From Paraburkholderia sp. HP33-1 (GTDB lineage: Bacteria > Pseudomonadota > Gammaproteobacteria > Burkholderiales > Burkholderiaceae), in NCBI RefSeq assembly GCF_021390595.1, contig NZ_JAJEJR010000002.1, positions 2,046,001-2,110,000 of the forward strand: a stretch of DNA of 64,000 nt, read 5' to 3'. Within the stretch, counting starts at the first letter, position 1. Each line of letters begins with the position of its first letter. The position numbers and the translations under genes were made by a program. Of the stretch, positions 32,823-51,070 are shown one piece after another. A model generated the notes under the pieces. The model saw only the letters and a program-made list of their open reading frames with translations. It was not told where the DNA came from and ran no database searches.

Positions 32823-33176
32823 ATGAGCACCGAACGCGCGCTCTGCGCACTCGATGACCTGCCGGACGGCGGCTCGCGCGGCATGCTGCGCGAGGGGCTC
32901 GACGACCGGCTGTGCGTCGTGCGCCAGGGTGATGAAGTGTTCGTCTGGCTCAACGATTGCCCTCACGAGCACCGGCCGATGGAATACCGGCAGGACCGCT
33001 TTCTGTCCGGCGACGGACACCACATCGTCTGTTACGCGCATTCCGCGCATTTCGACATCCGCACCGGTCACTGCTTCGCCGGGCCATGCACGGGCCGGCA
33101 TCTGACGAAAGTGCCGGCCCGTGTCGAGAACGGCACCGTGTGGATTCCCGCCGAACTGCCCTCGGTCTTCGACTGA
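32823..33176 (+). CDS. Rieske-type [2Fe-2S] ferredoxin
   Basis: The 117-residue single Rieske domain has Cys-x-His in NDCPHEHRPMEY and Cys-x2-His in VCYAHSAHFDI, the four cluster ligands. It has no membrane anchor or oxygenase domain, so it is a soluble electron carrier. No Rieske non-haem oxygenase alpha subunit or matching reductase is encoded in the operon. Its partner may be the FAD monooxygenase, or a protein encoded elsewhere. Confidence 0.85.
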   Translation: MSTERALCALDDLPDGGSRGMLREGLDDRLCVVRQGDEVFVWLNDCPHEHRPMEYRQDRFLSGDGHHIVCYAHSAHFDIRTGHCFAGPCTGRHLTKVPARVENGTVWIPAELPSVFD

Positions 33177-33208
33177 CAACCGACACGTCACACCGACACG
33201 ACACCACT

Positions 33209-34372
33209 ATGTTCCAGTATTTCCCAACCAACTACGTCTGGAGCCTCTCGACGATGATCGCCCTCACGCACGGCGGCAACATCGGAGAGGTCGATGCGAT
33301 GTGCGCGCCGTTGCGCGATGCCGCGCTTGCCGGCGACGATCCCGGCACGCTCGCATTCTATGAAGCGTGGAAAGCGGGCGCCGACAAGCTCGTCGCGCTC
33401 GCGGACGAAGACCTCGCGCGGGGCCACAAGCTCTCCGCCGGCGAGAAATATGGCCGCGCGGGCCTGTACTACGGCATCGCCGAGCGCATGCAGGCGCACG
33501 GCTTCGAAGCACGACTTGCGATCTACCGGCGCTCGCTGGAACTGTTCGAACTCGGCCGGACGCTCGGGCGCGAGAACTGCGTGCGCGTCGAGATTCCGTA
33601 CCGTGACACGCATCTTTCCGCGCTCTACGTGCGTGCTGAAGGATTGCAGCAAGGGCAGCGCGCGCCCATCGTCGTGGTGATGAACGGCCTCGACTCGACC
33701 AAGGAAATGCTGCAAAAGAGCGTGATGGGCACGATGTTCGCGCGGCGCGGCCTGTCAGCGCTCTTCATCGACCAGCCGGGCACGGGAGAGGCGCTGCGCC
33801 TCTCGGACCTGCATGCCGTCCATGACACCGAGACGTGGGCCGCGCCCATCGTCGACTGGCTCGAACGCCATCCGGAAGTGGACCCGCAGCGTATCGGCGC
33901 GCTCGGCGTGTCGCTAGGCGGGTACTACTGCCCGCGCGCTGTCGCGTTCGAACCGCGCTTCGCGTGCGGCGCGGTATGGGGGGCCAACCACGACTGGCGC
34001 GAAGTGCAGCAGGCGCGCCTGAAGCGCGAAGGCGAGAATCCGGTGCCGCACTACTGGAAACACGTGCAATGGGTGTTCGGCGCGAAGGACATGGACGATT
34101 TCTTTGAGAAGGCTTCACGCATGCATCTGAATGGCGTGCTCGATCGCATCCGCGTGCCGTTCCTGGTCACGCATGGCGAGAACGACCGGCAGATCCCGCT
34201 CAGGTATGCGCACGCTACCTTCGAGCAGCTCGTCAACAGTCCGAAGAAGGATCTGTTCATCTTTACCGAACGCGAAGGCGGAGTCGAGCACAGCTCGCTC
34301 GACAACCCGCTGAACGCGGGCAACCGGATTGCGGATTGGCTCGCGGAACAGCTTGGCGGGACGCTCGCGTGA
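33209..34372 (+). CDS. Alpha/beta hydrolase, 2,6-dihydroxypseudooxynicotine hydrolase-like
   Basis: The 387-residue protein has an N-terminal helical lid region followed by an alpha/beta hydrolase core. The core has nucleophile elbow GVSLGGYY, acid in HGENDRQIP and His in GGVEHSSLDN. The overall pattern (VVVMNGLDSTKEML, FIDQPGTGEALR) matches the C-C hydrolase type represented by 2,6-dihydroxypseudooxynicotine hydrolase and FrsA-like esterases. In this operon it may hydrolyse a C-C or ester bond after oxidation. The ATG at 33209 begins the conserved region. Confidence 0.8.
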   Translation: MFQYFPTNYVWSLSTMIALTHGGNIGEVDAMCAPLRDAALAGDDPGTLAFYEAWKAGADKLVALADEDLARGHKLSAGEKYGRAGLYYGIAERMQAHGFEARLAIYRRSLELFELGRTLGRENCVRVEIPYRDTHLSALYVRAEGLQQGQRAPIVVVMNGLDSTKEMLQKSVMGTMFARRGLSALFIDQPGTGEALRLSDLHAVHDTETWAAPIVDWLERHPEVDPQRIGALGVSLGGYYCPRAVAFEPRFACGAVWGANHDWREVQQARLKREGENPVPHYWKHVQWVFGAKDMDDFFEKASRMHLNGVLDRIRVPFLVTHGENDRQIPLRYAHATFEQLVNSPKKDLFIFTEREGGVEHSSLDNPLNAGNRIADWLAEQLGGTLA

Positions 34373-34406
34373 GCATCCCGCCCGAACAACAACATCGAGA
34401 CATACT

Positions 34407-35540
34407 ATGGCATTGGTCAACAAGGTTCTGATCATCGGCGGCGGCATCGGCGGCATGAGTGCCGCGATCCTGCTGAGCAGGCAAGGCATCGCCGTCGATC
34501 TCGTCGAACTCAACCCGCAATGGGCCGCCGACGGCGCGGGCATCACGATTAGCGGTCCGACGCTGCGCGCCCTGCGCGAAGTCGGCGTAGTAGACGAGGT
34601 GTTGCGCATGGGCGGCTCGTGGCATGCCGTCGACATCTGCGACGCGAATGGGCGCCCCGACGTGACCGTTCCCGTCGCGCCCGCGATCGGCGCGGAAGAT
34701 CTGCCCGGCGCAGCCGGCATCATGCGTACGACGCTTGCCGGCATCATGGGCAACGCTACGCGCGATGCCGGTGCTCAAGTGCGGCTCGGTGTGAGCTTCG
34801 AGACGCTCACGCAGGACGGCGATGGCGTCGATGTGCTGTTCACCGACGGCAGCCGCAGCCGCTACGATCTCGTGATCGGCGCGGACGGCGTCAATTCGGC
34901 GGTGCGAAAACACGTGTTGCCGGACTTTGCCGGCCCGAAGTTCACAGGCCAGGGATCGTGGCGCGCGATCGTGCCGCGCCTCAGCGAGAACTCAACGATC
35001 TACATGGGCAAGACGACCAAGGCCGGGATGAATCCCATCAGTGCGACGGAGTGTTACCTGTTCGTGCTCGACAAGCGCGAAGGCATGGACTTCATTGCGC
35101 CGAACGAATGGCCGCGCATGCTGGCCGATCTGCTGGCCGAATTCGGCGGCGCGGTCGGCGAGTTCCGCGAGGGTCTGCTCGATGGTTCGCTGGCGAATCA
35201 CCGGCTACTGTATCGCCCGCTTGCCGGCCATATGATCGACGCTCCCTGGCACAAGGGCCGCGTCGTGCTGCTCGGCGACGCGGTGCACGCGACCACGCCG
35301 CATCTCGCATCGGGTGCGGGGATCGCCGTCGAAGGCGCAATCGTGCTCGCAGAGGAACTCGGGCGCCGCCATTCGCTAGAAGGCGCGATGATCGCGTACG
35401 CCGGCCGCCACTACGATCGCGCGCGCCTCGTCGTGACGACGTCCGGGCGCATGGGGGAAATCGAACGCGAAGGCGGCTCGCGCGACGAACATACACGGCT
35501 GATGGTCGCGGCTCAGCAAGCGTTGCGTCAGCCGCTTTGA
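34407..35540 (+). CDS. FAD-dependent aromatic monooxygenase (PHBH/UbiH type)
   Basis: The 377-residue protein has GGGIGGMSAAILLSRQGIAVDLVE at the N-terminus, DLVIGADGVNSAVR mid-protein and GDAVHATTPHLASGAGIAVEGA near residue 290. These are the three FAD/NAD(P)H motifs of class A flavin monooxygenases. Such enzymes hydroxylate activated aromatic or enol substrates. This supports an aromatic or heteroaromatic pathway substrate. Confidence 0.85.
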   Translation: MALVNKVLIIGGGIGGMSAAILLSRQGIAVDLVELNPQWAADGAGITISGPTLRALREVGVVDEVLRMGGSWHAVDICDANGRPDVTVPVAPAIGAEDLPGAAGIMRTTLAGIMGNATRDAGAQVRLGVSFETLTQDGDGVDVLFTDGSRSRYDLVIGADGVNSAVRKHVLPDFAGPKFTGQGSWRAIVPRLSENSTIYMGKTTKAGMNPISATECYLFVLDKREGMDFIAPNEWPRMLADLLAEFGGAVGEFREGLLDGSLANHRLLYRPLAGHMIDAPWHKGRVVLLGDAVHATTPHLASGAGIAVEGAIVLAEELGRRHSLEGAMIAYAGRHYDRARLVVTTSGRMGEIEREGGSRDEHTRLMVAAQQALRQPL

Positions 35541-35588
35541 ACCGCAGTACGCGCGAGCGTCATACAAGACAAAGCAGGAAACACTGAC

Positions 35589-36341
35589 ATGACTATTTCC
35601 AATCCTTCCAACGCTCGCGTCGCCGTCGTTACAGGCGCCGCGGGCGGTCTCGGCGAAGCTTTCGCGCTGCGCCTCGCGGCAAACGGCCACGAACTGGTGC
35701 TGACCGACTGCGTGCCTTGCGATACGCTCGCCGCGCGGATCGTCGCCCACGGCGGCCGTGCGACCGCGCTCGCCTGCGACCTCGCGCAACCCGCGCAAGT
35801 GGAGCAATTTGCGGCACGCGTGCTGGAGCGCGTCGGCCACGTCGATGTGCTCGTCAACAACGCCGCATTCATGCCGATGGCGCCGCTTGCATCGATCACT
35901 GCCGGACTGTGGCGGCAGATCATGACCGTCAACGTCGACGCGCCTTTCCTGCTCGCACAGGCGTTTTCCGTCGGGATGATCGAGCGGCGCTGGGGGCGTA
36001 TCATCAACCTCGCTTCGAGCACGGTCTGGGGACCACCGCCCGGCATGACGGCCTACGCAAGCAGCAAGATGGCCGTGATCGGATTGACGCGGGCGCTCGC
36101 GGCCGAACTCGGCACCCATGGCATTACGGTCAATGCCATCTCCCCGGGACTGACACGGCACCCTGGCAGTGCGGCGAACCTGCCGACGCAAGCTTTCGAA
36201 GCGGTGCGCGCACGGCAGTTCATTGCGCGTACGGAAGTGCCCGACGATCTGACGGGTGCGCTGGCGTTTCTGGCGTCGGACGATGCGAGCTTCGTCACGG
36301 GGCAAGTGCTGAACGTCGATGGCGGGGGATTTGGGTTCTAG
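35589..36341 (+). CDS. SDR-family oxidoreductase
   Basis: The 250-residue classical SDR has TGAAGGLGEAF, NNAA, the Ser in LASSTVWGP and the active-site motif YASSK. It is the last gene of the plus-strand catabolic operon and ends 36 bp from the convergent GH2 gene. It is probably an NAD(P)-dependent dehydrogenase for a pathway intermediate. Confidence 0.85.
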   Translation: MTISNPSNARVAVVTGAAGGLGEAFALRLAANGHELVLTDCVPCDTLAARIVAHGGRATALACDLAQPAQVEQFAARVLERVGHVDVLVNNAAFMPMAPLASITAGLWRQIMTVNVDAPFLLAQAFSVGMIERRWGRIINLASSTVWGPPPGMTAYASSKMAVIGLTRALAAELGTHGITVNAISPGLTRHPGSAANLPTQAFEAVRARQFIARTEVPDDLTGALAFLASDDASFVTGQVLNVDGGGFGF

Positions 36342-36377: not shown

Positions 36378-38960
36378 TTAACTCGCAATCCTCAAACGGA
36401 TGCTCTTGGCGGAATTGACAGCGCGCACGTCGATCACAATCGGATCTGGAAGTACGCAAGATTTCGGAGGACTTGATTCGAAGAGAAGCGGCCGCAGCAA
36501 TCGGGCACTGTCTGGTGCTAGTCCGACCCGTGTCTGCGCGCCGGGTGCGAGGTGGAACCAGTTATCCTCGGGCAGCATGTCTGGCGCGGAGATTTGAACG
36601 AAGCGCGCAACGCTAAGGGTGCGAATGTTCACCCACCATTGCCCATCACAACACTCCGCGCTCGCTTCAAGGCCAATATCGCCGCGTTCAAAGACGCTCG
36701 GGTGTGTCCGATCCGGAAAATAGAACGCCTGCGACAGGAGCGCACCGCTATCGATGGAGTACATCGAGGCGATCACCGTATCATGCTCGCGCGGACCGAA
36801 CTGATAGGCATAAGTGAAGTCGAAAAACCGGCCAAGCAATTCAACCGAGTTGATTCGAAGGCCGCCGTGGGGTTCGACGCTGAGGTCACGGTGCGCGCGA
36901 ACGAGTGGGACTCTACCGTCTCGCAGCGCAACGACTTCGACCCGCACATTGAGTGCGTGCTGGCGATCATTGAGCAAGTGGATGTCAAGACCGTTGAGCC
37001 CTTCGTCCAACAGGAGGATCTGCTGCGGCTGTAGCGAGTGACGCATTGCATACCACGGCGATTTGGGACGCAGATAGGCATCGATGATGCCCCAGCCCGC
37101 ACCTGGCATGACGTCCTGAAACTGCCAGGCGAGCGCGCCCGAACATCGTGAACCAATGCGCCGCCATTCCGAGAAGGTCTCGCGGTACAGATCGGCAATC
37201 ACCGCCCGTGACAATTCCAGGTAGCGAGCCGGATCCTCACTTCGCAGACGAGCCGGATCCTGTGCGTACAGTTCGCGCAGGTAGTGATCGCGTACGTCGT
37301 CGAAGTCCCAGGACGCACCCGGGTCGCGCGGTACCGCCGTTTTCCAGCGCGGCTCGTCAGTCATTGGAGAACCGATCGCGTCCAGGGTGGCGTCGCATGG
37401 CACGTTCGCAAATGCGAGGCACTCACTGGCAAACCGCACGTCGGCGCGGCGTGCGTCGTCCAGTGGTCGGCGATACGCGCCAACGCCGTAGTAGTGCGAT
37501 ACACCTTCACGCGGAAAGAAGGGTAGCGGATCGCCGCACGGCGAGTCGGAAACATAGATCGCGTCGGGGCGATGAAGCGCAGCAATGTCGGCAAGCTTTT
37601 GCGCTGTCAGCTCGACTTGCCGTTGAGTGGCATCGAGTCCGACCATGGCCGCCTGCTGCGCGATTTCGCTGCCGCCGCAAAGCACCGCGAGCGACGGATT
37701 GGCGCCGCAACGCTCGAGAAATTGAATCGCCTCCTGCTCGATCGAAACGCTAAAGGACGGATCGGCAGATGGATAGTCGAAGTTGGCAAACATAAAATCT
37801 TGCCAGACTAACAGCCCCATTTCGTCGCATAAAGCGTAGAAGGCATCATCCTCATACACCGTGATGCCGGCAACGCGAATCATGTTGAATCCAGCCGCTT
37901 TGGCCAGTTGCAGATAATGCCGGTAGACGGATGCGTCGGCGTGCAACCGCAGTGGGTCCGCGCTGCTCCAGCACGCCCCACGTGCGAACATCGGAAGACC
38001 GTTGACCGACAGCGCGAAGCCCCCGTTGTCACGCCCGCGGTCTAGGGCGAGCGTGCGAAAACCGGTTCGTCCCAACGGCAGCGACGTGCTCCCGATACGT
38101 ACTGTGACGTCATATAAAGTGGGTTCGCCATGCGTGTGTGGCCACCAAAGCTTGACGTTGGCCACAGTGAGATCGGCGTGGAATGTGTACGCGTCGCGCT
38201 GGACGAAGGGGGTTTCATGGCCACCGCAACTCAGGTGGGCATCGAGCGTGCCACTGATTGGGGCAGCCAGTCTAAGCGTAACGTCGATACCTCCGTCGCG
38301 GCCACGGACGAAAGAGCGCAGCGAGTGCTGCCAGATGACCGGCGGCCCCTCCGGATCCACGACCTCGACGTCGCGCCATGGTCCAATGGGTTCTATCGAA
38401 GGGAACCAGCCCGGCATGTGTCCGAGCAACGTCGTGCGTATCCCCCGCAATCCGGGCGCATCGACGAGACGGGTCCGCCAGCGGGCCCTTCGCGCCGGCA
38501 CCGCGGCTTGCAAATGACGGTCCATGGAACGGAAGCATAGATATAGCGTATTACCTTCCGGACTCAGGTTGACCGCCGTCTCGTGTGAGACGAACATGCT
38601 TGTCGAGCGCAATAACAACGTGTCGTTGAACCACACTTCGGCGATCGTGGCCAGGCCATGTAGCCGGATCAGGCGGCGCCCGGTGCCAGATAGATTCAAT
38701 CGATACCAGTAGTCGCATGAACCCAACGGCGTCGGATTGAGCGGGTCGAAGCTGCCTGCCAGGGCGAGCTCATGCGCCACTGTACCTGGCACTGCCGCAT
38801 CAATCCAGTTGGCCGATCCTGTCTCCGCTATGTCTCGCGGTTGCGCTGCCGCGCCGGCGGGGGTAGCGCGCATTTTCCAGCCTTGCACGCGGCGTGCAGG
38901 TTGCGAGCCTGCTATCGCCATTGCGTCGTGCGGCGTCGATACAACGACTCCATCAGTCAT
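36378..38960 (-). CDS. Glycoside hydrolase family 2, beta-mannosidase-like
   Basis: The 860-residue protein has an N-terminal galactose-binding jelly roll (YWYRLNLSGTGRRLIRLHGLATIAEVWFNDTLL), an immunoglobulin-like linker and a TIM barrel. The candidate acid/base Glu is in LCGGSE (about residue 432) and the nucleophile Glu in FASE (about 512), as in beta-mannosidase-type GH2. No signal peptide is visible, so it is likely cytosolic. Its start overlaps the DUF1839 stop by 4 bp, making it the last gene of the carrier-protein operon. A glycosidase here suggests that the product involves a sugar. Confidence 0.8.
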   Translation of the reverse strand: MTDGVVVSTPHDAMAIAGSQPARRVQGWKMRATPAGAAAQPRDIAETGSANWIDAAVPGTVAHELALAGSFDPLNPTPLGSCDYWYRLNLSGTGRRLIRLHGLATIAEVWFNDTLLLRSTSMFVSHETAVNLSPEGNTLYLCFRSMDRHLQAAVPARRARWRTRLVDAPGLRGIRTTLLGHMPGWFPSIEPIGPWRDVEVVDPEGPPVIWQHSLRSFVRGRDGGIDVTLRLAAPISGTLDAHLSCGGHETPFVQRDAYTFHADLTVANVKLWWPHTHGEPTLYDVTVRIGSTSLPLGRTGFRTLALDRGRDNGGFALSVNGLPMFARGACWSSADPLRLHADASVYRHYLQLAKAAGFNMIRVAGITVYEDDAFYALCDEMGLLVWQDFMFANFDYPSADPSFSVSIEQEAIQFLERCGANPSLAVLCGGSEIAQQAAMVGLDATQRQVELTAQKLADIAALHRPDAIYVSDSPCGDPLPFFPREGVSHYYGVGAYRRPLDDARRADVRFASECLAFANVPCDATLDAIGSPMTDEPRWKTAVPRDPGASWDFDDVRDHYLRELYAQDPARLRSEDPARYLELSRAVIADLYRETFSEWRRIGSRCSGALAWQFQDVMPGAGWGIIDAYLRPKSPWYAMRHSLQPQQILLLDEGLNGLDIHLLNDRQHALNVRVEVVALRDGRVPLVRAHRDLSVEPHGGLRINSVELLGRFFDFTYAYQFGPREHDTVIASMYSIDSGALLSQAFYFPDRTHPSVFERGDIGLEASAECCDGQWWVNIRTLSVARFVQISAPDMLPEDNWFHLAPGAQTRVGLAPDSARLLRPLLFESSPPKSCVLPDPIVIDVRAVNSAKSIRLRIAS

Positions 38961-40012
38961 GGAATGACCAAAGGATTGCGCTGTGACATCTGCATGTCCC
39001 CTTTCAGCTGGGTCTCGATGCCGGTCGGCGAAAATGCCTTGTTGAGACCGTCGACAAGCAATTCGTAGGCATGTTCCAGTACGTCGAGGCTACTTTCCCC
39101 ACCATCCTCTCTCCCTCGCGCGCTGGCCCGTGCGAGCCGGAATTCCAGCACCATCGACTCGGACGCGATGGTGTCGCACGCCGCGATTTGCGCGCCGAGC
39201 ATGCCGGCGTCGCTGTCGCCGCTCGCGTCAAGCCAGCGCAGATACCGGCCCAGCAAGTCGAAATTCGAACCGAGTTGTCTGAGCGTGTTGAACGAGTACG
39301 CGTGAAAGTACGATGTCGGCCGCGAGGCGATTTCTTTGGCATCGCGGGCGAAAGCCTGCCGAAACGCACCAATAGGATTCACGCCCGGTCTGCGCTGCAG
39401 GTGTAGTCGAAGTAGTGAGCGCGACGTGTCTCGCAGCCGTATTCCATCGAGTGGCTCAAAGCGACGTTTCGCGCATTCGACATACGGAGGGAGAGGCAAC
39501 CCGCCGACAGATGCGACGTTCAGCAACGCGTCGTAGTCGGAATCGGTCGCGAGATAGTAGCCCGTGTTGTGAAAGTAACCCAGTTGGCGGCCGCCCGGAT
39601 CGATTGCGTCGATACAAATCGTAGTCTTGGTGTGCTGTTCTCGATAGCTTGTGCCTTGCGTGTCCGGCAAATAGCACGCGTCGACTTCAACCAGCATCAC
39701 ATGGCCGCGCTCAACCTGTTTTTCAACATGCAGATGAAGCGGCTCGAAGATAGCGTGTTCCTGTACGACTACGCCATACAACAGTTCGAGATCTGCAAGG
39801 GGGAACTTGAAGAACGTGAACTGATCGCCTTCGAAATCCTGTGCGACAGTGAAGGGCAACGCAGCGTGCGGATCCAAACCCCACCGCGAAAGCACCTCGA
39901 TCCACAGATCCACATAGCAATTACTCTGCCTCCAGATCATCTGTGGGCCGTGCAACGGATGAGGGCGATAGTCGACGGCCCGTTCCCGTGCCTGAGCGAA
40001 CAGGCTGCTCAT
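38957..40012 (-). CDS. DUF1839-family protein, candidate aminoacyl transferase
   Basis: The 351-residue protein matches DUF1839: YRPHPLHGPQMIWRQSNCYVD near the N-terminus, DFEGDQFTFFKFPLADLE, then VEVDACYLPDTQGTSY and YFHNTGYYL. The function is undescribed to my knowledge. Candidate catalytic residues are Cys32 (NCYVD), Asp111 and His127/His148, a set that would suit a cysteine-dependent acyl transfer; this is inference. The ATG at 40012 is fixed by its 4-bp overlap with the ligase stop; an upstream in-frame ATG at 40051 is not conserved-looking. Confidence 0.8.
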   Translation of the reverse strand: MSSLFAQARERAVDYRPHPLHGPQMIWRQSNCYVDLWIEVLSRWGLDPHAALPFTVAQDFEGDQFTFFKFPLADLELLYGVVVQEHAIFEPLHLHVEKQVERGHVMLVEVDACYLPDTQGTSYREQHTKTTICIDAIDPGGRQLGYFHNTGYYLATDSDYDALLNVASVGGLPLPPYVECAKRRFEPLDGIRLRDTSRSLLRLHLQRRPGVNPIGAFRQAFARDAKEIASRPTSYFHAYSFNTLRQLGSNFDLLGRYLRWLDASGDSDAGMLGAQIAACDTIASESMVLEFRLARASARGREDGGESSLDVLEHAYELLVDGLNKAFSPTGIETQLKGDMQMSQRNPLVIP

Positions 40013-40983
40013 GGTTTCGCCCACAATACATCGCGAACGGTCTGCGGCCACCGACGAATATCAAAGCCGTGGTGTCGGAAGAGAGCCAGCGTGAGTCTTT
40101 CCAGACCGAAACCGACACAGCCGGTATGAGCGACGCTCAGGTCTCGGGTCTTGATTCCCCACAGCAAGCCAAAGTGGTCCATGTGATAGTTGAAACTCAG
40201 ACAGGCTGTGAGCTTGTCCGCATTCTCGATAGGAATCAGTAACTCGAACTTGAGATTTTGCTCGCGCTGACTATGCGCGACTATCTTGCCGCCTCGTCCA
40301 AAGAACGGGTCATTGGCCAGGTCGATGCTGTTGGGCAATTCAAGCAATTCCACCAGACGTGTTCCGCGCTCCATCCACTCGCTTCGGAACGCCATGATTT
40401 GCGCCGGCGTGCCAAACCTCACATATTCGCGCATCCGGAACAATTGCATGCGGGTCGGATCCAGCGATGGCTCATGGCGGAAGCAATACGACATAACGTC
40501 GATTGTGCGGCCCTGCTCCGGCAACGAACCGCGTTGCGCAATAACTGGATATACGGGGTAGCAAGCGGCCGGGGTCATGACGACGTACGTCGGCTTCTGG
40601 TACTCAGTCCAGTCGTCGCCGCGGTCGAGACATTGCAACACGCGTTGCTGTTCGTGCTCACCGCCGCAGAAACTGTGAACGGTTCCCGCAAGTTGCGGGA
40701 AGCTTTTCAAATATTCACTACGCTCGAATTCGGAGCGGCTCATGGCCGGTGGAAAGCGCAACACTTCGGCATTCTGATCGGCACCGAGGCGGGTCACCAG
40801 CGAATCGATCGCCTCGACCACTCGTTCAAACCGCTCGTCTCGACCGAAAAGCCCTTGCACACCCGTCGGTATCAACAACCCCGCCTCAACCAGCTCATCT
40901 CTCAGTGAATTGACACCGGGCCGGTCATCGCTGGTGTTGAACCCGCTGATTGGACGGTCTTTAACGGCAACTGAATCATCCAT
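40009..40983 (-). CDS. Amino acid:[carrier protein] ligase (class II aaRS homologue)
   Basis: The 324-residue protein is a class II synthetase core without a tRNA-binding arm. It has motif 2 (CFRHEPSLDPTRMQLFRMREYVRF, residues 167-190) and motif 3 (GFGLERLTLAL, 291-301). Cys141, Glu186 and Cys289 have exactly the 45- and 103-residue spacings of the zinc ligands Cys131, Glu176 and Cys279 that I recall for the Bradyrhizobium enzyme. Those homologues activate glycine or alanine and load it on a phosphopantetheine carrier. The carrier gene is two genes upstream. The start shares one base with the dehydrogenase stop (TAATG). Confidence 0.88.
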   Translation of the reverse strand: MDDSVAVKDRPISGFNTSDDRPGVNSLRDELVEAGLLIPTGVQGLFGRDERFERVVEAIDSLVTRLGADQNAEVLRFPPAMSRSEFERSEYLKSFPQLAGTVHSFCGGEHEQQRVLQCLDRGDDWTEYQKPTYVVMTPAACYPVYPVIAQRGSLPEQGRTIDVMSYCFRHEPSLDPTRMQLFRMREYVRFGTPAQIMAFRSEWMERGTRLVELLELPNSIDLANDPFFGRGGKIVAHSQREQNLKFELLIPIENADKLTACLSFNYHMDHFGLLWGIKTRDLSVAHTGCVGFGLERLTLALFRHHGFDIRRWPQTVRDVLWAKP

Positions 40984-42227
40984 TATTCTCTCCCCGAAGA
41001 CAGCGGACGCTGCGCGAGTAAAAGGTTGGCTGTATTGAGGTCGATGCGATCGTTACTGATCATCAACGGTGCCGAATACAGGTCGCGAAGGTGGCGGCTC
41101 AGGCTGAATGGCGTTCCGTTCTTGTATGCCGCCATTCCACATATCATCACCGCATGGAAAACGACCTGTAATGCGGTCGTCGATACGAACGTCTTCAACG
41201 TATTGATCTCGGCGGCATCCGACATGGCCTCTGACCACGAACGCTCGCGTCCTTCTTTTGAATGCAAGCGCAATGCGCTGTCCACACGCCCTTGCATCGC
41301 TTGCAGTAACGCGAGCGCCTCGGCAATGCGTCTTCCCGATGGGGCATTGTCACTCTTGTTCTTTTGCACCTGAGCGCGGAAAAAGCGATGGGCGCGCAAA
41401 AACGCATCGTTCGCAATGCCAGTCCACACTGATGCCCAAAGGATATGGGACGTCGGCACCATGGTCTGTTCGGCGATCTCGGAGAATGGCGACGGCAATA
41501 TCTGCTGCACCTTCCCGCATGCGTCAAGGGCGAAACCTTCACTGCAAGTGCCTCGCATCCCGAGAGTGTCCCATTCATTACGGCGAGTCAGTGTCGTGTC
41601 TTCTCGCAAAAGAGTGAGTAGTACCTGATCTGTTGCGGGAGCCGACAAATTCCTTTTAGCCGTCGCAAGAATTACGTCGGCATGCGCACCGTATGAAATG
41701 ACGGGGCAAAGCTTGTGAAGATCGAATGAATCGCCTTCTTCCTCAATTGCGCATTGGCTGTTTCGAAGATTGCCTCCAACTCCTTCTTCGGATGTCGCAG
41801 ATGCCAGCAGCCACTCATGTTTCGCTAACTCACTGAGGAACTGCCGATGCCACTCTTCCGACAACGCGTGTCTGGCAATGCAGGCGATCTGAATCTGATG
41901 CATGGCATATACCATTCCCGCCGACGAACAGGCCTGGGCGAGAATTCGACAGGCGGATGCGACTGCATCGAGCGAGGCGCCCGCGCCGCCAAGCTCCTTT
42001 GGAACCATTGCGGCGAGCAGGCGGTGTTCACGCATGGCGTTGACAGCTTCGGCCGGAAACCTCGCGTCGCGATCTACGGCTTCAGCAAACCGGGCGCACG
42101 TTTGCGCGACAACGAGAGCGGCTTTGTCTAGTGCGTGGCTGGCCGTCTCATCCGCAGTCGCCCGTTGCCGTACCGGGGGCGTCACAGACGGTTGTTCCTC
42201 GCCAATATCAGAGTCGAGATTATTCAT
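40983..42227 (-). CDS. Acyl-CoA dehydrogenase-like flavoprotein
   Basis: The 414-residue protein has the acyl-CoA dehydrogenase fold: N-terminal helices (MVPKELGGAGASLDAVASACRILAQ), a middle beta domain with LLASATSEEGVGGN and WDTLGMRGTCSEGF, and a C-terminal helical bundle. Such enzymes can act on carrier-bound aminoacyl groups; the prolyl-carrier dehydrogenases of pyrrole antibiotics are the known precedent. Position between the carrier protein and its ligase suggests a carrier-tethered substrate. The start overlaps the carrier stop by 4 bp. Confidence 0.82.
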   Translation of the reverse strand: MNNLDSDIGEEQPSVTPPVRQRATADETASHALDKAALVVAQTCARFAEAVDRDARFPAEAVNAMREHRLLAAMVPKELGGAGASLDAVASACRILAQACSSAGMVYAMHQIQIACIARHALSEEWHRQFLSELAKHEWLLASATSEEGVGGNLRNSQCAIEEEGDSFDLHKLCPVISYGAHADVILATAKRNLSAPATDQVLLTLLREDTTLTRRNEWDTLGMRGTCSEGFALDACGKVQQILPSPFSEIAEQTMVPTSHILWASVWTGIANDAFLRAHRFFRAQVQKNKSDNAPSGRRIAEALALLQAMQGRVDSALRLHSKEGRERSWSEAMSDAAEINTLKTFVSTTALQVVFHAVMICGMAAYKNGTPFSLSRHLRDLYSAPLMISNDRIDLNTANLLLAQRPLSSGRE

Positions 42228-42475
42228 ATTGGTTGCGCGTCCCGCTGCAATTGCGTAATCGCGTTGGCCATTGAATTGATACTCTGAAAAAGGCTTCGGC
42301 TGAGCATCCGGTCCGGAATTTCCAGATTAAAGTGGTTCTCGATCGCGAGCATTAGCTGAATTGTGTTCAACGAAGATAGACCGATCTCGTAGAGATCAGC
42401 ATCGTCTGAAATGTTGTCAGCCGAAATGTCGAGATGACCAAAATCCGTGATGATTTGTCGTAGTTCTTTATTCAC
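42224..42475 (-). CDS. Acyl/peptidyl carrier protein
   Basis: The 83-residue carrier protein (MNKELRQIITDFGHLD onward) has the phosphopantetheine site in DLYEIGLSSLNTI. Ser35 takes the place of the modified Ser of the usual DSL motif, and Ser34 replaces its Asp. The start is GTG with CCGGAG about 7 bases upstream; an overlapping ATG is followed at once by TGA. It heads the five-gene operon and is the presumed aminoacyl acceptor of the ligase. Confidence 0.85.
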   Translation of the reverse strand: MNKELRQIITDFGHLDISADNISDDADLYEIGLSSLNTIQLMLAIENHFNLEIPDRMLSRSLFQSINSMANAITQLQRDAQPI

Positions 42476-42650: not shown

Positions 42651-44447
42651 TCAAGAAACGGCAGGCGCGCCCACAGGATGATTCGTTTGTTCTGCTGCGC
42701 CGCTCGTTTCCTTGATCACGCTATCGCACAGTGAAATCACTTTCGCCGAATTGGTAGCATTGAAGAGCGCGTGATCGATGTCATCAAAAATGGCTACGCG
42801 TATCGACGGAAAGCGCGACAGGCGCGCGCCGCGCCTTCCGAAATTCGCGGCAAGCAGATCCATGCTCGCGTCGTAAGCGCCATGCACGAGGACCGTCTTT
42901 ACGCCTTTTGCATCGAGCGCGCGCATCATCGGCAACGGTTGGGTCTCTTGCCCTCGTGGCGTATTGCTTAGCGCATCGAGTCGCAGTGCACTGACGACAA
43001 GCGAGCGGGCACGCGCTGCAAGATTGCCGACCACGAAGTGAACGATCTGAGTCAATTTCTTCTCGTCGCTCAGCACGGTCTTCCACTTGGCAGGATCGAG
43101 CATCGAGATCGCGTAGCCGGCCATCGAATTGTGAGCCGCTTCCCTGGGCGCGCCGGGCGCCTTTTCTTCCGGCTTATTGAAGGTCGGGATGTTGACTGCG
43201 ACGACGCCCTTGATCGTCGTTTCGATGATGCCCGCCCTCAACGCATGATATGCACCCGAACAGATGCCGAAAGAGAAAATTGTTTTATAAGCGTGGCGCG
43301 TGAGCCAGCGCGCGGCGGCGGCTGTGTCTTCCGTCGCGACTGAATCATAGATATGCGAGAAACGTCCGATCGGTTGCTTTGCAGTGATGTCCGGCGGACT
43401 ATCGCCACGCCCGTGCGCATCGAAGCGCAATGAAGCGATGCCGCCACGCGCCAGTTCCCGCGCGATGCGCACCGACAGGCGACTATCACCTACGTGCGCG
43501 CTCGCCGACGTGTTCGCGAGCAGATACGCCAGACCGTGCGTCGTGCCGGTGCGCGGTTCGCACAAGATGCCGAACAGCCCCGCTTCGCCGATGCATACCG
43601 GCCGCTCTATCGCCTCGGGCGTTTGAATGCAGAGATCGTCAGGCCAGTGCTTCTCCATACGTGATGGCACGGCCCTTTCGCGTCCGGCGGACATCCATTC
43701 GACCGCGTCGGCATAAGACTCTTCTGGCAAGATGGAAAATGCCGTCTCCTGGATAAAGCCCGCCAGGCCCTCGAACGGACGCGTCTCGGCTTGCACGCCG
43801 AGGGCCGCGAGCGCATCGCGGAGCGGCTCATTCGCGCCCGTTCGTGCCTGCATAAGGAGCGCGCGCCGCGCGGGGGCATCTTTCGCCTTGCTCAAGGTCG
43901 ATGGAAGGTCAACGGACTCGAGCGAGCGCTTGAACTCGTCGCTATAGACCTGCCCTAACACTCTGAACGGACTGTCTTGCTGGGCCGCGCGCAATGGCGG
44001 CGCAAGCTGCTCCAGCCAGGTCTTGCGTACCATCGAAAGCTCGCGCAAGTAGATGCGCCCGCTTGTCACCGGTTCGAGCAGCACGAGATCATCGACCGGC
44101 TTTTGCATAGCGGCACAAAGCGCAAATGCAGCGCCCACACGAAAACCGCATAGGCTCACATGCTCGACGCCAGTTTCGGCTTTCAGGACGTCGATAGCCG
44201 CATGTATGTCGCTCACGGCGCTTTCGAATTGATCCGGTTTGCCGTCGGCCCCTGCTGAATTCCCCGTGCCGGCATAATCGAAGCGCAATACCCAGATGCC
44301 CCGCGCCGACAATTCATCAGCCAGATAGCGCATCCCGTTGTACGTCCAGACGTACTCATGGCCGTACGTGTTGCAAAGAATCACCCCGCGCGCGCTCGAA
44401 CCAGTGTGCAACCAGCCGAAGCGGTCACCGAAAACGATGGGTTTCAT
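42651..44447 (-). CDS. Tandem alpha/beta hydrolase with altered nucleophiles
   Basis: The 598-residue protein consists of two alpha/beta-hydrolase domains. The first (residues 1-250) begins VILCNTYGHEYVWTYNGMRYLADEL and has the elbow G101-F-R103-V-G105, so Arg stands where Ser is expected. The second (about 280-590) has the elbow G-I-C396-S-G, so Cys is the possible nucleophile, with Asp/His candidates in HGAYD and DDIDHALF. It resembles hydrolases found in exosortase and polysaccharide loci. AGGAGG precedes the ATG. It lies between the glycosyltransferases and the carrier-protein operon. Confidence 0.72.
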   Translation of the reverse strand: MKPIVFGDRFGWLHTGSSARGVILCNTYGHEYVWTYNGMRYLADELSARGIWVLRFDYAGTGNSAGADGKPDQFESAVSDIHAAIDVLKAETGVEHVSLCGFRVGAAFALCAAMQKPVDDLVLLEPVTSGRIYLRELSMVRKTWLEQLAPPLRAAQQDSPFRVLGQVYSDEFKRSLESVDLPSTLSKAKDAPARRALLMQARTGANEPLRDALAALGVQAETRPFEGLAGFIQETAFSILPEESYADAVEWMSAGRERAVPSRMEKHWPDDLCIQTPEAIERPVCIGEAGLFGILCEPRTGTTHGLAYLLANTSASAHVGDSRLSVRIARELARGGIASLRFDAHGRGDSPPDITAKQPIGRFSHIYDSVATEDTAAAARWLTRHAYKTIFSFGICSGAYHALRAGIIETTIKGVVAVNIPTFNKPEEKAPGAPREAAHNSMAGYAISMLDPAKWKTVLSDEKKLTQIVHFVVGNLAARARSLVVSALRLDALSNTPRGQETQPLPMMRALDAKGVKTVLVHGAYDASMDLLAANFGRRGARLSRFPSIRVAIFDDIDHALFNATNSAKVISLCDSVIKETSGAAEQTNHPVGAPAVS

Positions 44448-44531: not shown

Positions 44532-45788
44532 TCAGAGTTGGAACGGCTGGTGCTCAGGCATGCTCACGGTGCCAGGCTCCTCCGGCAATGCTTCCGGCAA
44601 GCTCAGAAGATTGCGCCAACGCGTTGTGAACGCGGTCACGCTGTGCTCGGTCTCGCACCAGGCGGCGAAGCGCTCGGCAGCTTGCAACGCGGCGTCCATG
44701 TGCGGCCACGGATTCGCGACGAAACGCTCGAACTCATCCGCATGCATCGCGAGTGCCGGTTCGTGAAAGCCAAGCCCTTCGAATGCGGTTTCGTTCCCAA
44801 CCGGCACGCATCCATGCGCGATGGCTTCCATTACCTTCGATTTAATGCCACCCGCAAGGAACGCCGGGCAAAGCGCGACGGAATTTTCCGTATAGACATC
44901 CGCTTGCGATGGCGCAAACCCAGCGAACCTCACATTTGGGACGGGATGGTACTGACGCACCATATGACCATAAATCACGAGCTCGACATCAGGTGTGACG
45001 CGCTGCCAAACGTCGCACAGATATTCAATCGAGAGCCGGTTTTGCATTTGCCTGTCTGAGCCGATAAACACGAAGCGCAGCGGATACACAGGCCGCATCA
45101 GATCGCGCACGGTTGATACCGGTGGTGCAATCACGTGCACCTTGCCATGTGCGCTCGCGTGGAGCGCGCGGCTGAGCGCGGCGGCATCGGTCCTCGACAC
45201 CAGCGTGATGGCATGCGCAGCCTCGACGGCTGCACGTTCCTGGCGCGCAAGACAGAACGCTTCGTATCGCAAAAGGGCATTACGTAGCATCCGCGTATTG
45301 ATGAGCTTCATCACTGAGGTGGGAACCGATTTCGCCAGATAGCCCGCGGACAGCGGCAGACTTGCGTGGCGCAATACCGTTGCACGGCGTGACATCAGAT
45401 CATCGAAGTCCACGATGACCGGCCGCGCTCCCATCAGCCGCCTAATGTGCGGCAGTTGATCGACGAGGCGAATCCCATCGATATATATGACATCCGGTGT
45501 AAAGGATCTGATCGCTTGATCAAGCGCACGCGCATGGGGCCGATGCGAAAACATCGCGATCTGCAACGCGCATGGCGACCCGGACAGGATGCCGCGCGCG
45601 AGCCGTGCCAATGCACCGAGCTTCGGCAGGACGCCGGGCGTCTCCAATACCGAGCACAGCTTCAGCTCGCGCAGTTCGATGTCACCCCCGATCGCTTCTC
45701 GAATGAAGCGGAGTGTACGCTCGCGTCCGTTGCTCGCCGTCGCTGGGATGTCCCTAGTCATCAGCATCAGCACGCGTCTTTTTTTCAT
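44532..45788 (-). CDS. Glycosyltransferase (GT-B, GT4-like)
   Basis: A 418-residue protein with an N-terminal Rossmann half (VLMLMTRDIPATASNGRERTLRFI) and a C-terminal half ending in GGIKSKVMEAIAHGCVPVGNETAFEGL, the donor-binding region of GT4-like enzymes. It lacks the usual E-x7-E spacing in clear form. The predicted role is adding a sugar to the exopolysaccharide repeat unit on the cytoplasmic face. GGGG precedes the ATG. Confidence 0.8.
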   Translation of the reverse strand: MKKRRVLMLMTRDIPATASNGRERTLRFIREAIGGDIELRELKLCSVLETPGVLPKLGALARLARGILSGSPCALQIAMFSHRPHARALDQAIRSFTPDVIYIDGIRLVDQLPHIRRLMGARPVIVDFDDLMSRRATVLRHASLPLSAGYLAKSVPTSVMKLINTRMLRNALLRYEAFCLARQERAAVEAAHAITLVSRTDAAALSRALHASAHGKVHVIAPPVSTVRDLMRPVYPLRFVFIGSDRQMQNRLSIEYLCDVWQRVTPDVELVIYGHMVRQYHPVPNVRFAGFAPSQADVYTENSVALCPAFLAGGIKSKVMEAIAHGCVPVGNETAFEGLGFHEPALAMHADEFERFVANPWPHMDAALQAAERFAAWCETEHSVTAFTTRWRNLLSLPEALPEEPGTVSMPEHQPFQL

Positions 45789-45830: not shown

Positions 45831-47054
45831 TTAAAGTACTTCTGGCCGCGACCGGGCTCGCGTCCCGCGCTTGTTTGCTACGGATTTGATGACTCGTTCG
45901 AATTCGTCCACCTGCTCCCGCGGCATGAAGCGACCGCGCTCGGCATGACAGCGTCGTGCTACCGCGTCGTAGAATGCGCCGTCGTGCGCAAGCCTGGCGA
46001 TGAGTGCGCCCAACGCCGCAATGTCGCCGCGCGGCACGGTCAATTCCGGCAATTGGGCATAGACTTCCGGCAATCCGCCGGACGCAAATGCCACTGATGG
46101 TTTGAAGAATTCCCAAGACTCGATGCCGACGAGGCCAAACGGTTCGTCCCACATCGATGTGACGACGACAAGATCAACTAGCTCGTAGAACGCTTCGCGC
46201 CGCATGAAACCGTTATGTGTGACCTTCAGTTGTGGATAACGCCCAATCAGCGCGGGAATGCGTTGTTCGTTATCTTTGCCCGCAATATGCACTTCAAGAT
46301 TCGGCACATTTGCCGCGGCGACACTTGCAAAAAACTGTTCGATGCCTTTGGTGGTATCGGTTCTTCCGATGAAACCAACCTTGAACGGATTGCCTGGAAC
46401 GTGAGGCTTCACGTCCATGCCACGCATGAGAGGTGGCGCGTTATGAATCACGATCGGTTCGCTACGCTGAAAGAATCCCGCCGCACGATGCCGCTCATCT
46501 ACGAAGCTGCTCACGCTGACGGCACGGTCGACCATGCGCGATAGCCATGCTTTCGGACGAGCTATCGCTTTACACTGCCCGCAGGGCGTAACGCACGCCT
46601 GATCGTCGGCGAACATCGTCGAGCGCGGGCATAGCAGCCAGTAATCATGATTCACGTGAACGACAGACAAGCCGCGCAAGCGTGCGGCGACCCATAGCGC
46701 GGGTCCAATCCCTTTGAGCGTATGCGTGCAGAGCACGTCGGGGGCCAGCGTCTTCAGGCGCCGCCAGGTGAGCACGAACATCAGCGGATTGAAAACGTCG
46801 ACGATCCCGAACAGCATCTTGACGAAGTGGCCGCGTTTGCCGTGATGAAACTGGTTGTACACATTGAGGTTGGGAAGCACATGCACGTCGAGTCCGTCGC
46901 GCGTGGTCCGCTCGCCCTTGCGCGTGTTCGATAGCGTCAACACCGATACGTCGTATCCGCGCCTCTTCAATTCGACGGCGAGCCCATGAACCGTTATCTC
47001 TGCACCGCCGACAACGTTGGGCGGAAACCGGTTCGCGCAAAAGGTGATCTTCAT
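45831..47054 (-). CDS. Glycosyltransferase family 4
   Basis: The 407-residue GT-B protein begins MKITFCANRFPPNVVGGAEITVHGLAVELKRRGYDV, the GGAE-type GT4 N-terminus. Its C-terminal donor site contains VGFIGRTDTTKGIEQF and EPFGLVGIESW. The ATG at 47054 overlaps the flippase stop by 4 bp, which decides it against upstream in-frame starts within the flippase gene. The predicted role is repeat-unit assembly. Confidence 0.88.
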   Translation of the reverse strand: MKITFCANRFPPNVVGGAEITVHGLAVELKRRGYDVSVLTLSNTRKGERTTRDGLDVHVLPNLNVYNQFHHGKRGHFVKMLFGIVDVFNPLMFVLTWRRLKTLAPDVLCTHTLKGIGPALWVAARLRGLSVVHVNHDYWLLCPRSTMFADDQACVTPCGQCKAIARPKAWLSRMVDRAVSVSSFVDERHRAAGFFQRSEPIVIHNAPPLMRGMDVKPHVPGNPFKVGFIGRTDTTKGIEQFFASVAAANVPNLEVHIAGKDNEQRIPALIGRYPQLKVTHNGFMRREAFYELVDLVVVTSMWDEPFGLVGIESWEFFKPSVAFASGGLPEVYAQLPELTVPRGDIAALGALIARLAHDGAFYDAVARRCHAERGRFMPREQVDEFERVIKSVANKRGTRARSRPEVL

Positions 47055-48289
47055 GCCCGGTCCTTGTGATGAAGCGAAAAGCCGAAGGTCACCGCCCAAA
47101 ACAGCACGACCGATACTGCCGTGCCGGTTGCGGGCGAATACATCATGAATGAGTGCGGCATCAAAAAAGGCGCGGCAGCGATCGAGGCGACAGTCACGCC
47201 TTGCTTGACCATGATGAGCCGATATCGCCGCGCGGCGACGAGCCAGGTGCTCAGCCCGGCGTCGGCGAATGTGGCGACCGCGCACAGCGTCGCGTAAATC
47301 ATCACGGAAACCCCGGCCTCAAATTTCGGACCGTAGATGACGTCGAACACACGCTCGCCCACGAAGATGCAGGCAACCCACCCGACCACGCCGACCAGGG
47401 CGAGATAAAGTGCAAGCCTGACCGCGCGCGAGCGCAGTTGTTCCTCGTTGCGCCCGACGTAGACCATGCTCGGAGCGAGCGCAAGCGCGAGCGTCGTGCC
47501 CGCGGAATTCCATTGCTCAACGAGCGATGCAGCCGCCGCATAGATGCCGAGATCAGCCTTTGACATCAACACGCCGAGCAACAACCGATCCATGCGCAAC
47601 ACGATGACACCCGCCGCGATTGCCGGCCAGATCTTCAGGCCGCGCAACACAAGCGTGCGCGTGATGATTGAATCCCGGGGCTTAGACCGTGGACTGCTGA
47701 AGGCCATCGAACGATAACGGCTAAAGGGCGCCACCGCCGCAACACATGCTTCGAGCGGCCATGCGAAGGACGCGAAAATCGCACCCATCGACGCATGAGC
47801 GGCACCCAGCAACCAGAGCACACGCACGCCGCTCGCATAGGCTTTCGCGCGCGTAATGACCCACGGTTTAGTCTCCGCATAGGCCATCAGCGAACCTAGC
47901 GCAAGTGGCTCACCCGTTAGTACGAGCGCAGCTATCAGCGTAAGCGCGGTCGCGCTCGACACGGGCATGGCAATCGCCACGATGCCCATGAATACAATCA
48001 TGACCGCGAGCGAGAGGATCAGACGCAAGCGGAACGTGTGATAGAAGATCAGGTGCCGCAAGCGTCGATGCTTGCCAAGAATCGGCGCGACAACGGGCGA
48101 GCCAAAGATCAAGGCGATGCTGCCGACCACATAGACAAGCGACAATGCAAATTGCAGTTCGCCAAAGAGGCGCACCCCATAAAGACCCGCGAACAGATGA
48201 TTGCTCGCCACAGCCGCAAGCGCGCCGACGATCTTTTCGGTGACAACACCCGTGAACGAAGAAAGCAGGAGTTGCAGGAAGGAGTTCAC
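47051..48289 (-). CDS. Wzx-type polysaccharide flippase
   Basis: The 412-residue protein has about twelve hydrophobic helices. It opens FLQLLLSSFTGVVTEKIVGALAAVASNHLFAGLYG and has the MOP-superfamily segment IVLRMDRLLLGVLMSKADLGIYAAA mid-protein (read here as GVIVLRMDRLL). Such proteins flip lipid-linked repeat units across the inner membrane. It sits between polymerase-like and glycosyltransferase genes as in Wzx/Wzy clusters. Confidence 0.8.
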   Translation of the reverse strand: MNSFLQLLLSSFTGVVTEKIVGALAAVASNHLFAGLYGVRLFGELQFALSLVYVVGSIALIFGSPVVAPILGKHRRLRHLIFYHTFRLRLILSLAVMIVFMGIVAIAMPVSSATALTLIAALVLTGEPLALGSLMAYAETKPWVITRAKAYASGVRVLWLLGAAHASMGAIFASFAWPLEACVAAVAPFSRYRSMAFSSPRSKPRDSIITRTLVLRGLKIWPAIAAGVIVLRMDRLLLGVLMSKADLGIYAAAASLVEQWNSAGTTLALALAPSMVYVGRNEEQLRSRAVRLALYLALVGVVGWVACIFVGERVFDVIYGPKFEAGVSVMIYATLCAVATFADAGLSTWLVAARRYRLIMVKQGVTVASIAAAPFLMPHSFMMYSPATGTAVSVVLFWAVTFGFSLHHKDRA

Positions 48290-49741: not shown

Positions 49742-49742
49742 G

Positions 49743-50945
49743 TCAGACCTTTGCACGAGGTGCGATGCGTTCGAGCGCGCGATGAAGATCGCGGCTGACA
49801 GATTCGCTGGAGAAACGCTGCGCATTCTTCCGGCCGCGAATGGCGAAGTCATCACGCAAGCATGAGCCGTCTGCGACCCGCGCGATCGCATCGCGCCATA
49901 ACTCAACTCGCGTCGGGTCCTGCACGGCGATAAACGTATCCTTCATCGTGAAGCGATACACCGGCAGATCGGAAGCAATCACTGGCAGCCCGGTAAGCTG
50001 TGCTTCGATCACCGTCCGTCCAAAGCCTTCATGCAGCGTCGGCGATACATACGCATCGGCCGCTTGATAGCAGCAGGCCAGATCCACCTCGCTGACGCTC
50101 TCGACGAAATGCGCGTGGATACCCGCATCCCGCGCAATCTGCTCGCATTGCTTGCGGTTCGCAGCGTTCTGCGCTCTTCCCACGCGCAGCATGACGACGT
50201 CCTTCCTACCGAGCTCGGCCAAAGCTCGAAACACGGTGACATTGTTCTTGCGCGTCTCGTCCGTGCCCACGTTGAGTAGTACGATCGCATCGCCGAGGCT
50301 AAGACCAAGCCGTTCCTGCAATGCGATGCGCGCGCGATGGCGCGCTGCCCTATCGGTCGGCGGAATGCTTGCGTCGAACGCGTTCGGCACCAGTTCTATG
50401 GATTCCGGTCTTACGCGCAGTTCGGATATTGCATCCCGAATCGTGACGTCCGTGGTCGAGATAACGAGATCGGCGTGCGGAATCAGATACTGCAATATCC
50501 TCATGTAACGCGCCTTGAGCGTTTCCACGAAACCCCGTGTGTGGTCGCGGGAAACGACGTGGTGCATCACGATGCATACGCGTCCGCCGGCAAGCTTGAC
50601 GAACGGGATCATGAACGCCATGTCTTCCTGATACAACACGATGACATCCACCCTGCGCGCAACTCGCATCGCGCGAAGCGGATAGAGCACGAAATGGGTC
50701 CAGTACCGCTTGAACGAACGAGGAGGCGCAGGAATGTCCACTGCCTGCGCCGAAAAATCGTCGAACTGCTTCATCATGTCGAGGCAGGCGAGGCTGTAAC
50801 GCATTACGCCATTCCAGCTCGCCGGCCTCGGGCCGAGAAACCATACGACTTTCGCGTGCGTGTTCGCTGTGTTCAATGTACTTGCCGTGGCGCAGCCCGC
50901 GCCACGCGTCGCCCCATCGAGCAACGACTCACTGATTCGGCTCAT
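49743..50945 (-). CDS. Glycosyltransferase family 4
   Basis: A 400-residue GT-B enzyme with FLGPRPASWNGVMRYSLACLDM near the N-terminus. Its donor site contains LLNVGTDETRKNNVTVFRALAEL and SPTLHEGFGRTVIEAQLTGLPVIASD, the canonical GT4 E-x7-E motif (E of HEGFG and of VIEAQ). The preferred start is ATG 50945; ATG 50972 and 51044 are in frame. The N-terminus before residue 30 is not conserved-looking. Confidence 0.85.
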   Translation of the reverse strand: MSRISESLLDGATRGAGCATASTLNTANTHAKVVWFLGPRPASWNGVMRYSLACLDMMKQFDDFSAQAVDIPAPPRSFKRYWTHFVLYPLRAMRVARRVDVIVLYQEDMAFMIPFVKLAGGRVCIVMHHVVSRDHTRGFVETLKARYMRILQYLIPHADLVISTTDVTIRDAISELRVRPESIELVPNAFDASIPPTDRAARHRARIALQERLGLSLGDAIVLLNVGTDETRKNNVTVFRALAELGRKDVVMLRVGRAQNAANRKQCEQIARDAGIHAHFVESVSEVDLACCYQAADAYVSPTLHEGFGRTVIEAQLTGLPVIASDLPVYRFTMKDTFIAVQDPTRVELWRDAIARVADGSCLRDDFAIRGRKNAQRFSSESVSRDLHRALERIAPRAKV

Positions 50946-51070
50946 CCCGCTTTTCCTTCGCTGAGGTTGCATGCGCCAGTTCTTGGTGGTGTTCGCGGCG
51001 ACCCTGGCACCGAATCCATATGGCTGAGTGCGTCGTTCAACCACACCCGAAACGTTTAGCGACGCCCCTT

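Follow-up and report, generated by a model that had tools for sequence, protein, structure and literature searches.

Which product is built from an amino acid that has been placed on a carrier protein by a relative of the aminoacyl-tRNA synthetases (aaRSs)? The question is raised by a five-gene operon in a 64,000-nucleotide stretch of the 7.35 Mb genome of Paraburkholderia sp. HP33-1 (contig NZ_JAJEJR010000002.1, positions 2,046,001 to 2,110,000; hereafter the window, to whose numbering positions refer unless another locus is named). The operon occupies positions 42475–36378 of the minus strand and encodes, in overlapping reading frames, an acyl carrier protein (ACP), a flavoprotein with the fold of acyl-CoA dehydrogenases (ACADs), an amino acid:[carrier protein] ligase, a DUF1839 protein, and a GH2 glycosidase. 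With confidence slightly better than even, we favor a stand-alone thiotemplate pathway in which the aminoacyl group is oxidized on its carrier and an amide is then probably formed by the DUF1839 protein. Aminoacylation of carrier proteins by aaRS relatives was reported in 2010, and a 2022 review describes its biological role as still unknown; a first-pass annotation of the window had called the locus a carrier-protein aminoacylation operon of undescribed product, and the family matches given below agree with it.

Organization of the operon

The five reading frames lie where the first-pass annotation had placed them, and the tight overlaps that it reported are confirmed as 4, 1, 4 and 4 bp, read from the sequence. 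The ACP gene (42224–42475, 83 residues, GTG start) overlaps the flavoprotein gene (40983–42227, 414 residues) by an ATGA, and this in turn overlaps the ligase gene (40009–40983, 324 residues) by the single shared base of a TAATG. A second ATGA joins the ligase gene to the DUF1839 gene (38957–40012, 351 residues) and requires that the latter start at the ATG at 40012, a longer alternative frame having a GTG start at 40051; a third ATGA joins the DUF1839 and GH2 genes (36378–38960, 860 residues). A simple hydropathy scan of the operon proteins revealed no evident signal peptide or membrane segment. The closest named relative that we have seen is Paraburkholderia translucens, whose DUF1839 protein is 88% identical in one comparison and 91% identical in another alignment.

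Predicted loading of the carrier protein

The first two components of the proposed pathway are clearly recognizable. The ACP matches PF00550 (42.5 bits) and NF005480/PRK07081 (125.7 bits against a cut-off of 72), and its phosphopantetheine serine, Ser35 in the motif GLSSL (codon 42371–42373), is present in 96 of 97 clustered ACPs, with proline in the other. The ligase has a class II aaRS catalytic core, exceeds the cut-off of its curated family (NF005479, of the PRK07080/Bll0957 type; 539.1 against 357 bits), and matches the Bll0957 chains in PDB entries 4h2w and 3mey at 308 and 302 bits. Cys141, Glu186 and Cys289, with the spacings of 45 and 103 noted in the first-pass annotation, align without gaps to the Bll0957 chains and are identical in all 93 ligases clustered from the loci; we take these positions to be the zinc ligands of Bll0957-type ligases, and predict the same role here. 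Because just the C-terminal catalytic part of the seryl-tRNA synthetase model PRK00960 is matched (positions 307–504 of 518), the enzyme lacks a tRNA-binding arm, as had also been proposed. The ligase would very probably use ATP to activate a small amino acid, which homology suggests is glycine or alanine, and load it onto the phosphopantetheine of Ser35.

Conservation of the five-gene unit

Constancy of gene order had been set beforehand as a check on the operon. The loci compared were 6 plasmid loci, 20 from a sample of the window's own family and 80 from named genomes, to which 12 loci of a phylum sample and 4 further plasmid loci were added, giving 122 in all and 117 without 5 duplicates. 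The ligase is present in 108 of these 117 distinct loci, and in 99 of the 108 the five genes lie on one strand in identical order. Its companions across the 108 are the ACAD-like gene (107), the ACP gene (106), the GH2 gene (104) and the DUF1839 gene (108, by construction, since the loci were found through DUF1839). Two of the four ligase loci without GH2 (L070 and L073) stop at a contig end right after DUF1839, and two (L128 and L189) do not. Among 398 sampled proteobacterial genomes, DUF1839 occurs in 16 and the ligase above its cut-off in 28, with weaker ligase matches alone in a further 16; all 16 DUF1839 genomes also carry the ligase, adjacent by coordinates in each. DUF1839 is present in 85 of 200 genomes of the window's family. 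The operon is complete in all 11 phylum-sample loci from outside this family, and its order is kept across Alpha- and Betaproteobacteria. The five-gene operon is an evolutionary unit.

This bears directly on the most conservative explanation, in which the ACAD and ACP genes serve ordinary fatty-acyl metabolism and stand beside unrelated genes by chance. Database records do annotate an acyl-CoA dehydrogenase, and the predicted structure matches SCAD, but the explanation is contradicted by the synteny across two proteobacterial classes and by an isoleucine at the catalytic glutamate position in 96 of 97 flavoproteins (see below), and we consider it extremely improbable.

The DUF1839 protein

The DUF1839 domain is unambiguous (PF08893, 431 bits against a cut-off of 22.5) and is the sole Pfam match at E values up to 0.001; BtrH_N (PF14399) was not found. 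The AF2 model (pLDDT 89.7) matches CcbD, AziU2-U3 and CtaG in the PDB over nearly its whole length. Cys32 (codon 39917–39919) starts a helix spanning residues 32–43 of the model and is present in all 48 rows of the DUF1839 alignment, in which His127 and His148, candidate members of a triad, are also invariant; a Cys-(Thr/Ser)-His site was modeled for DUF1839 in PMC10318531. Retention of the cysteine follows that of the ligase: at least one DUF1839 copy with Cys32 is found in 108 of 108 ligase loci, whereas it is lost in five of the nine ligase-less loci (replaced by Arg, Arg, Ser, Ala and Ala), an association with a Fisher p of 7.5e-7 if shared descent is ignored. Of the 32 loci that were recovered with the profile only (L041–L060 and L156–L167), 27 have both ligase and cysteine and five have neither. 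We propose that the DUF1839 protein is, on the strength of its modeled fold, a CcbD/CtaG-like carrier-protein-dependent amide synthase with Cys32 as nucleophile. It is probable that the acyl group would pass from the carrier onto Cys32 and then to an amine to give an amide, in a ping-pong reaction of the kind attributed to CcbD.

Several observations weigh against this assignment. Four of the nine ligase-less loci retain Cys32 (L088, L092, L115 and L124), and the cysteine comparison is partly biased in that the 80 named loci were fetched by two patterns, one of which includes the cysteine. DUF1839 shares 14% identity with CcbD, and when PDB sequences were searched by profile no DUF1839 relative was recovered, the only match being an unrelated one at E = 0.76. 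Moreover, AziU3/U2, among the three structural matches, is a ring-forming enzyme that closes the azabicycle and is not known to be an amide synthase. A shared fold therefore does not dictate which reaction is catalyzed, and confidence in the amide-forming step is slightly lower on this account. The DUF1839 protein could instead hydrolyze or proof-read the aminoacyl-ACP, or cyclize its substrate, such that the operon would release an oxidized amino acid in free or cyclic form. Besides the ring closure by AziU3/U2, a tandem alpha/beta hydrolase adjoining the operon in 19 of 108 loci speaks for such a role, as does the mostly hydrolytic character of the papain-like superfamily according to PMC10318531; we regard it as improbable, and retain amide formation as the preferred assignment. 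If DUF1839 proteins are CcbD/CtaG-like and Cys32 persists with the ligase, the open question about this operon becomes a three-enzyme assay with an amide detectable by mass as the expected outcome.

Two departures from the usual arrangement were also seen. In seven loci (L042, L085, L086, L110, L112, L114 and L129) the operon DUF1839 lacks the cysteine and a convergent second copy has it; since the active site of CcbD is reported to include residues of the adjacent monomer, such copies may by analogy form a catalytic/pseudoenzyme pair. The HP33-1 genome itself has a second, ligase-less DUF1839 gene (C1 1450753–1451685; L041 9738–10730, minus strand) in which arginine replaces the cysteine. Genes for an ACP, a regulator of the Crp type and a sugar transferase lie beside it, and it is probably the remnant of a Paraburkholderia-type locus.

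The flavoprotein

The flavoprotein exceeds the cut-offs of PF02771 and PF00441 and falls below that of PF02770. Its AF2 model (pLDDT 84.9) confirms the ACAD fold, and is matched alike by SCAD, DszC and the nitrososynthases. The position of the catalytic glutamate of SCAD and MCAD, the base of canonical acyl-CoA dehydrogenases, aligns with Ile390, eight residues past the Asp of the RD motif, and is isoleucine in 96 of 97 clustered flavoproteins and valine in one. The alternative glutamate position of IVD may, by our own reading through SCAD-like chains, correspond to Ser260. Plain alpha,beta-dehydrogenation is unlikely because the canonical base is absent; since glycine, moreover, has no beta carbon, oxidation of the carrier-bound aminoacyl group at nitrogen or at C-alpha/N would be the likelier course, and we consider this step somewhat more probable than its absence. 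The earlier proposal that the flavoprotein oxidizes the aminoacyl group gains only indirect support, in that 107 of 108 ligase loci also contain the flavoprotein gene, which adjoins the ligase in 12 of 12 ligase loci without DUF1839; the proposal is qualified by the missing base.

Exopolysaccharide context and the proposed acceptor

By its predicted gene content, the region upstream of the operon on the same strand is an exopolysaccharide locus. It encodes glycosyltransferases at 44532–45788 (PF13692), 45831–47285 (GT4-like; PF13579/PF00534) and 49743–51044 (PF00534), a DUF6418 protein that is perhaps a Wzy-like polymerase (48293–49906; PF19982, 100.8 bits), a tyrosine kinase of the Wzc/Wzz type that regulates chain length in exopolysaccharide export (51071–53410; PF23607, PF13807 and PF02706), and a HAD phosphatase, nucleotidyltransferase and GHMP kinase that may form a set resembling that for GDP-heptose synthesis (54744–57850; PF13242, PF00483 and PF00288). 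Of the 75 named Burkholderiales loci, 72 have exopolysaccharide markers in their fetched flanks, as do 16 of 20 family-sample loci, five of which share their places with the named set; in control stretches the figure is 1 of 20. The high count arises partly by construction, because the queries came from operon neighborhoods and the window; the contrast with the controls shows that the flanks are exopolysaccharide loci and does not give an unbiased rate. The Wzy-like gene and two of the glycosyltransferases of the window have relatives in just one of the 75 (P. translucens). The window DUF1839 groups with those of Burkholderia and Mycetohabitans, and the decayed C1 copy, which lies next to a different sugar-transferase gene, with those of other Paraburkholderia, so the association occurs in two settings within a single genome.

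With confidence a little short of even, we suggest that the acceptor would most likely be an amino sugar, ending in the Burkholderiales in the neighboring exopolysaccharide. Several points tell against this. Markers were found in 1 of 11 phylum-sample loci outside the family, in none of 5 named alphaproteobacterial loci and in none of 6 plasmid loci, among them two from Burkholderiales (Mycetohabitans and Caballeronia); the marker queries, drawn from Burkholderiaceae operon neighborhoods and the window, may miss distant homologues, and the high count includes loci that share descent. An amino-sugar synthesis gene is, in addition, absent from the operon. The same chemistry might instead act on a small cytoplasmic acceptor (a free amino sugar, a glycoside or a diamine) to give a diffusible lincosamide-like metabolite, the exopolysaccharide genes being neighbors by history. 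The operon is, after all, complete in each of the 11 loci of which only one has a marker by the queries used; its proteins lack evident export or membrane signals; CcbD and CtaG act on small molecules, as does AziU3/U2; and nif genes precede the operon in two Rhizobium plasmids. Set against these are the excess of markers over controls in the Burkholderiales, in two settings within one genome, and the fact that none of the five genes is one for export or resistance, and we consider a small-molecule acceptor possible and on balance doubtful. The first-pass annotation had the DUF1839 protein passing its acyl group to a sugar: the acyl-transfer half has been strengthened by the CcbD/CtaG fold and the retention of Cys32 with the ligase, and the sugar half has not. 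With a surface sugar as acceptor, genomes could be used to trace a type of glycan decoration across Burkholderia relatives and rhizobia; with a small molecule, the same would hold for a new family of amino-sugar amides.

A hydroxyl acceptor, by comparison, would leave the aminoacyl group bound to a surface glycan as an ester. In AlmEFG, which places glycine on lipid A, and in DltABCD, a carrier-loaded amino acid is moved to a surface glycan, so that glycyl- or alanyl-carrier loading would be a shared first step; those systems use an AMP-binding ligase and membrane transferases and make ester products, unlike this operon. Neither the five genes nor the hydrolase include a membrane acyltransferase family by Pfam, and the best fold match of DUF1839 makes an amide, and we judge this route more improbable still than release by hydrolysis or cyclization.

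In Rhizobium acidisoli and R. gallicum (L188 and L191) the operon lies directly behind the nif genes, and is preceded also by fdxB and by a gene annotated as a repressor of exopolysaccharide production. In its most specific form the amide pathway would be a lincosamide-synthetase-like machine driven by a former aaRS, in which loaded glycine or alanine is oxidized (for example to an N-hydroxy or an imino/glyoxylyl form) and linked by DUF1839 through an amide bond to an amino sugar, the product being an undescribed sugar unit with an oxidized aminoacyl group, found in Burkholderiales in exopolysaccharide and, next to nif genes, in a rhizobial symbiosis-linked glycan or signal; in all its parts together this is rather unlikely.

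The GH2 glycosidase and the tandem hydrolase

The GH2 protein (PF22666, 47.9 bits against a cut-off of 27) has beta-mannosidases as its nearest solved relatives. In all 92 clustered GH2s the asparagine before the acid/base is replaced by serine, giving the GH2_14-type SE motif (Ser431-Glu432), together with the nucleophile Glu513. BmGH2_14 and SdGH2_14, according to PMC12243196, share the replacement of NE by SE and the lack of a signal peptide, act slowly on pNP-beta-galactoside (kcat 1–3 per min) and have undetectable activity on mannobiose. At position 364, which by our own reading corresponds to the loop-2 histidine that is glycine in GH2_14, the 92 proteins have Gly (72), Ser (17), Ala (2) or Pro (1), and the window protein has alanine. 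PMC12243196 argues that substituted substrates may fit into the pocket. The suggestion that this enzyme edits the glycan did not gain support; with no signal peptide evident by the hydropathy scan, it would act in the cytoplasm and not on an exported polymer.

An occasional sixth partner, overlooked in the first-pass annotation, is a tandem alpha/beta hydrolase of 598 residues (42651–44447, minus strand; PF12146) resembling exosortase-associated hydrolases 1 and 2 (TIGR03100/TIGR03101, below cut-off). Its relatives adjoin the operon on the same strand within 1 kb in the 19 ligase loci mentioned above, and a further 18 of the 108 have one at another place in the stretch that was fetched; in Mycetohabitans and Azospirillum the gene is directly downstream of GH2. 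Tentatively, the cytoplasmic GH2_14-like glycosidase, with the tandem hydrolase where present, could trim or recycle the glycoside and stray thioesters.

Relationship to known systems and earlier proposals

Among the closest known systems is lincosamide synthetase (LmbC/LmbN-CP/LmbD; CcbC/CcbZ-CP/CcbD), whose activator is a nonribosomal peptide synthetase adenylation domain, whereas that of the window is a class II aaRS-like ligase; the window operon adds the flavoprotein and GH2. The substrates of CtaG (closthioamide) and AziU2-U3 (azinomycin) differ from those proposed for DUF1839, and the CtaG carriers are predicted to be loaded by ATP-grasp and acyl-CoA-synthetase-type proteins. BtrH of butirosin, an acyl carrier protein:aminoglycoside acyltransferase, is likewise papain-like with a carrier-protein donor and an aminoglycoside acceptor (PMC10318531), and DUF1839 lies outside the BtrH family in Pfam. 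In the literature searched, DUF1839 was named in PMC10318531 alone, and searches of that article for CtaG found no match; DUF1839 is listed there without either CcbD or CtaG.

A note added in proof to PMC2922099 (2010) proposed that an amino acid, probably mono-oxygenated, is ligated to an amino group of a cell-surface sugar, and ascribed the ligation to an uncharacterized gene adjoining the ligase, Atu2574, which we infer to be DUF1839. The conserved neighborhood and amide ligation of a possibly oxidized amino acid to a surface sugar were thus already in print. Added here are the CcbD/CtaG/AziU3 fold match, the pattern of Cys32 retention, the resemblance of the glycosidase to GH2_14, the tandem hydrolase as an occasional partner, the linkage counts with controls, the missing canonical ACAD base, and a second operon type.

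Ligase operons without DUF1839

This second type was seen in the 12 ligase genomes without DUF1839 among the 398 sampled. These loci have no DUF1839 or GH2 match, a weakly similar ACP on the opposite strand in 10 of 12, and varied downstream genes. Bradyrhizobium Bll0957, whose structure is known and which matches the window ligase at 308 bits, has the acd gene bll0958 next to it by number. By this neighbor and by its N-terminal sequence it resembles the DUF1839-less type. From its neighborhoods, the set of ACP, ACAD and ligase looks like a core of which DUF1839 and GH2 represent one of several uses.

The downstream genes include, in L200–L205 (at about 8.3–9.4 kb or 10.5–11.5 kb), one for a protein of 286–291 residues at the place where DUF1839 would be expected after ACAD-ligase; a scan of the L200 protein gave no Pfam match. 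Adjoining ACAD-ligase in L209 (5312–7593), L210 (10405–12712) and L211 (7197–9510) are a pyridoxal phosphate-dependent enzyme of Cys/Met metabolism and a homoserine O-succinyltransferase-like gene, assigned by scanning in L209 and by clustering in the other two, perhaps another use of the carrier chemistry. An esterase and an AMP-binding enzyme lie downstream in L207–L208.

Other neighboring genes

A Crp-family regulator lies near the operon in 69 of the 80 named loci (e.g. L041 7625–8359), and the Crp query found none in the 5 named alphaproteobacterial loci or the 11 phylum-sample loci outside the family; in Azospirillum lipoferum, however, the annotation places a Crp/Fnr regulator upstream of the operon. 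On the plus strand of the window, positions 32823–36341 encode a Rieske-like protein and an alpha/beta hydrolase (both named from translations alone), an FAD hydroxylase, and a pyridoxal-4-dehydrogenase-like short-chain dehydrogenase/reductase (match below cut-off), which together have the appearance of a catabolic cluster that extends up to the operon.

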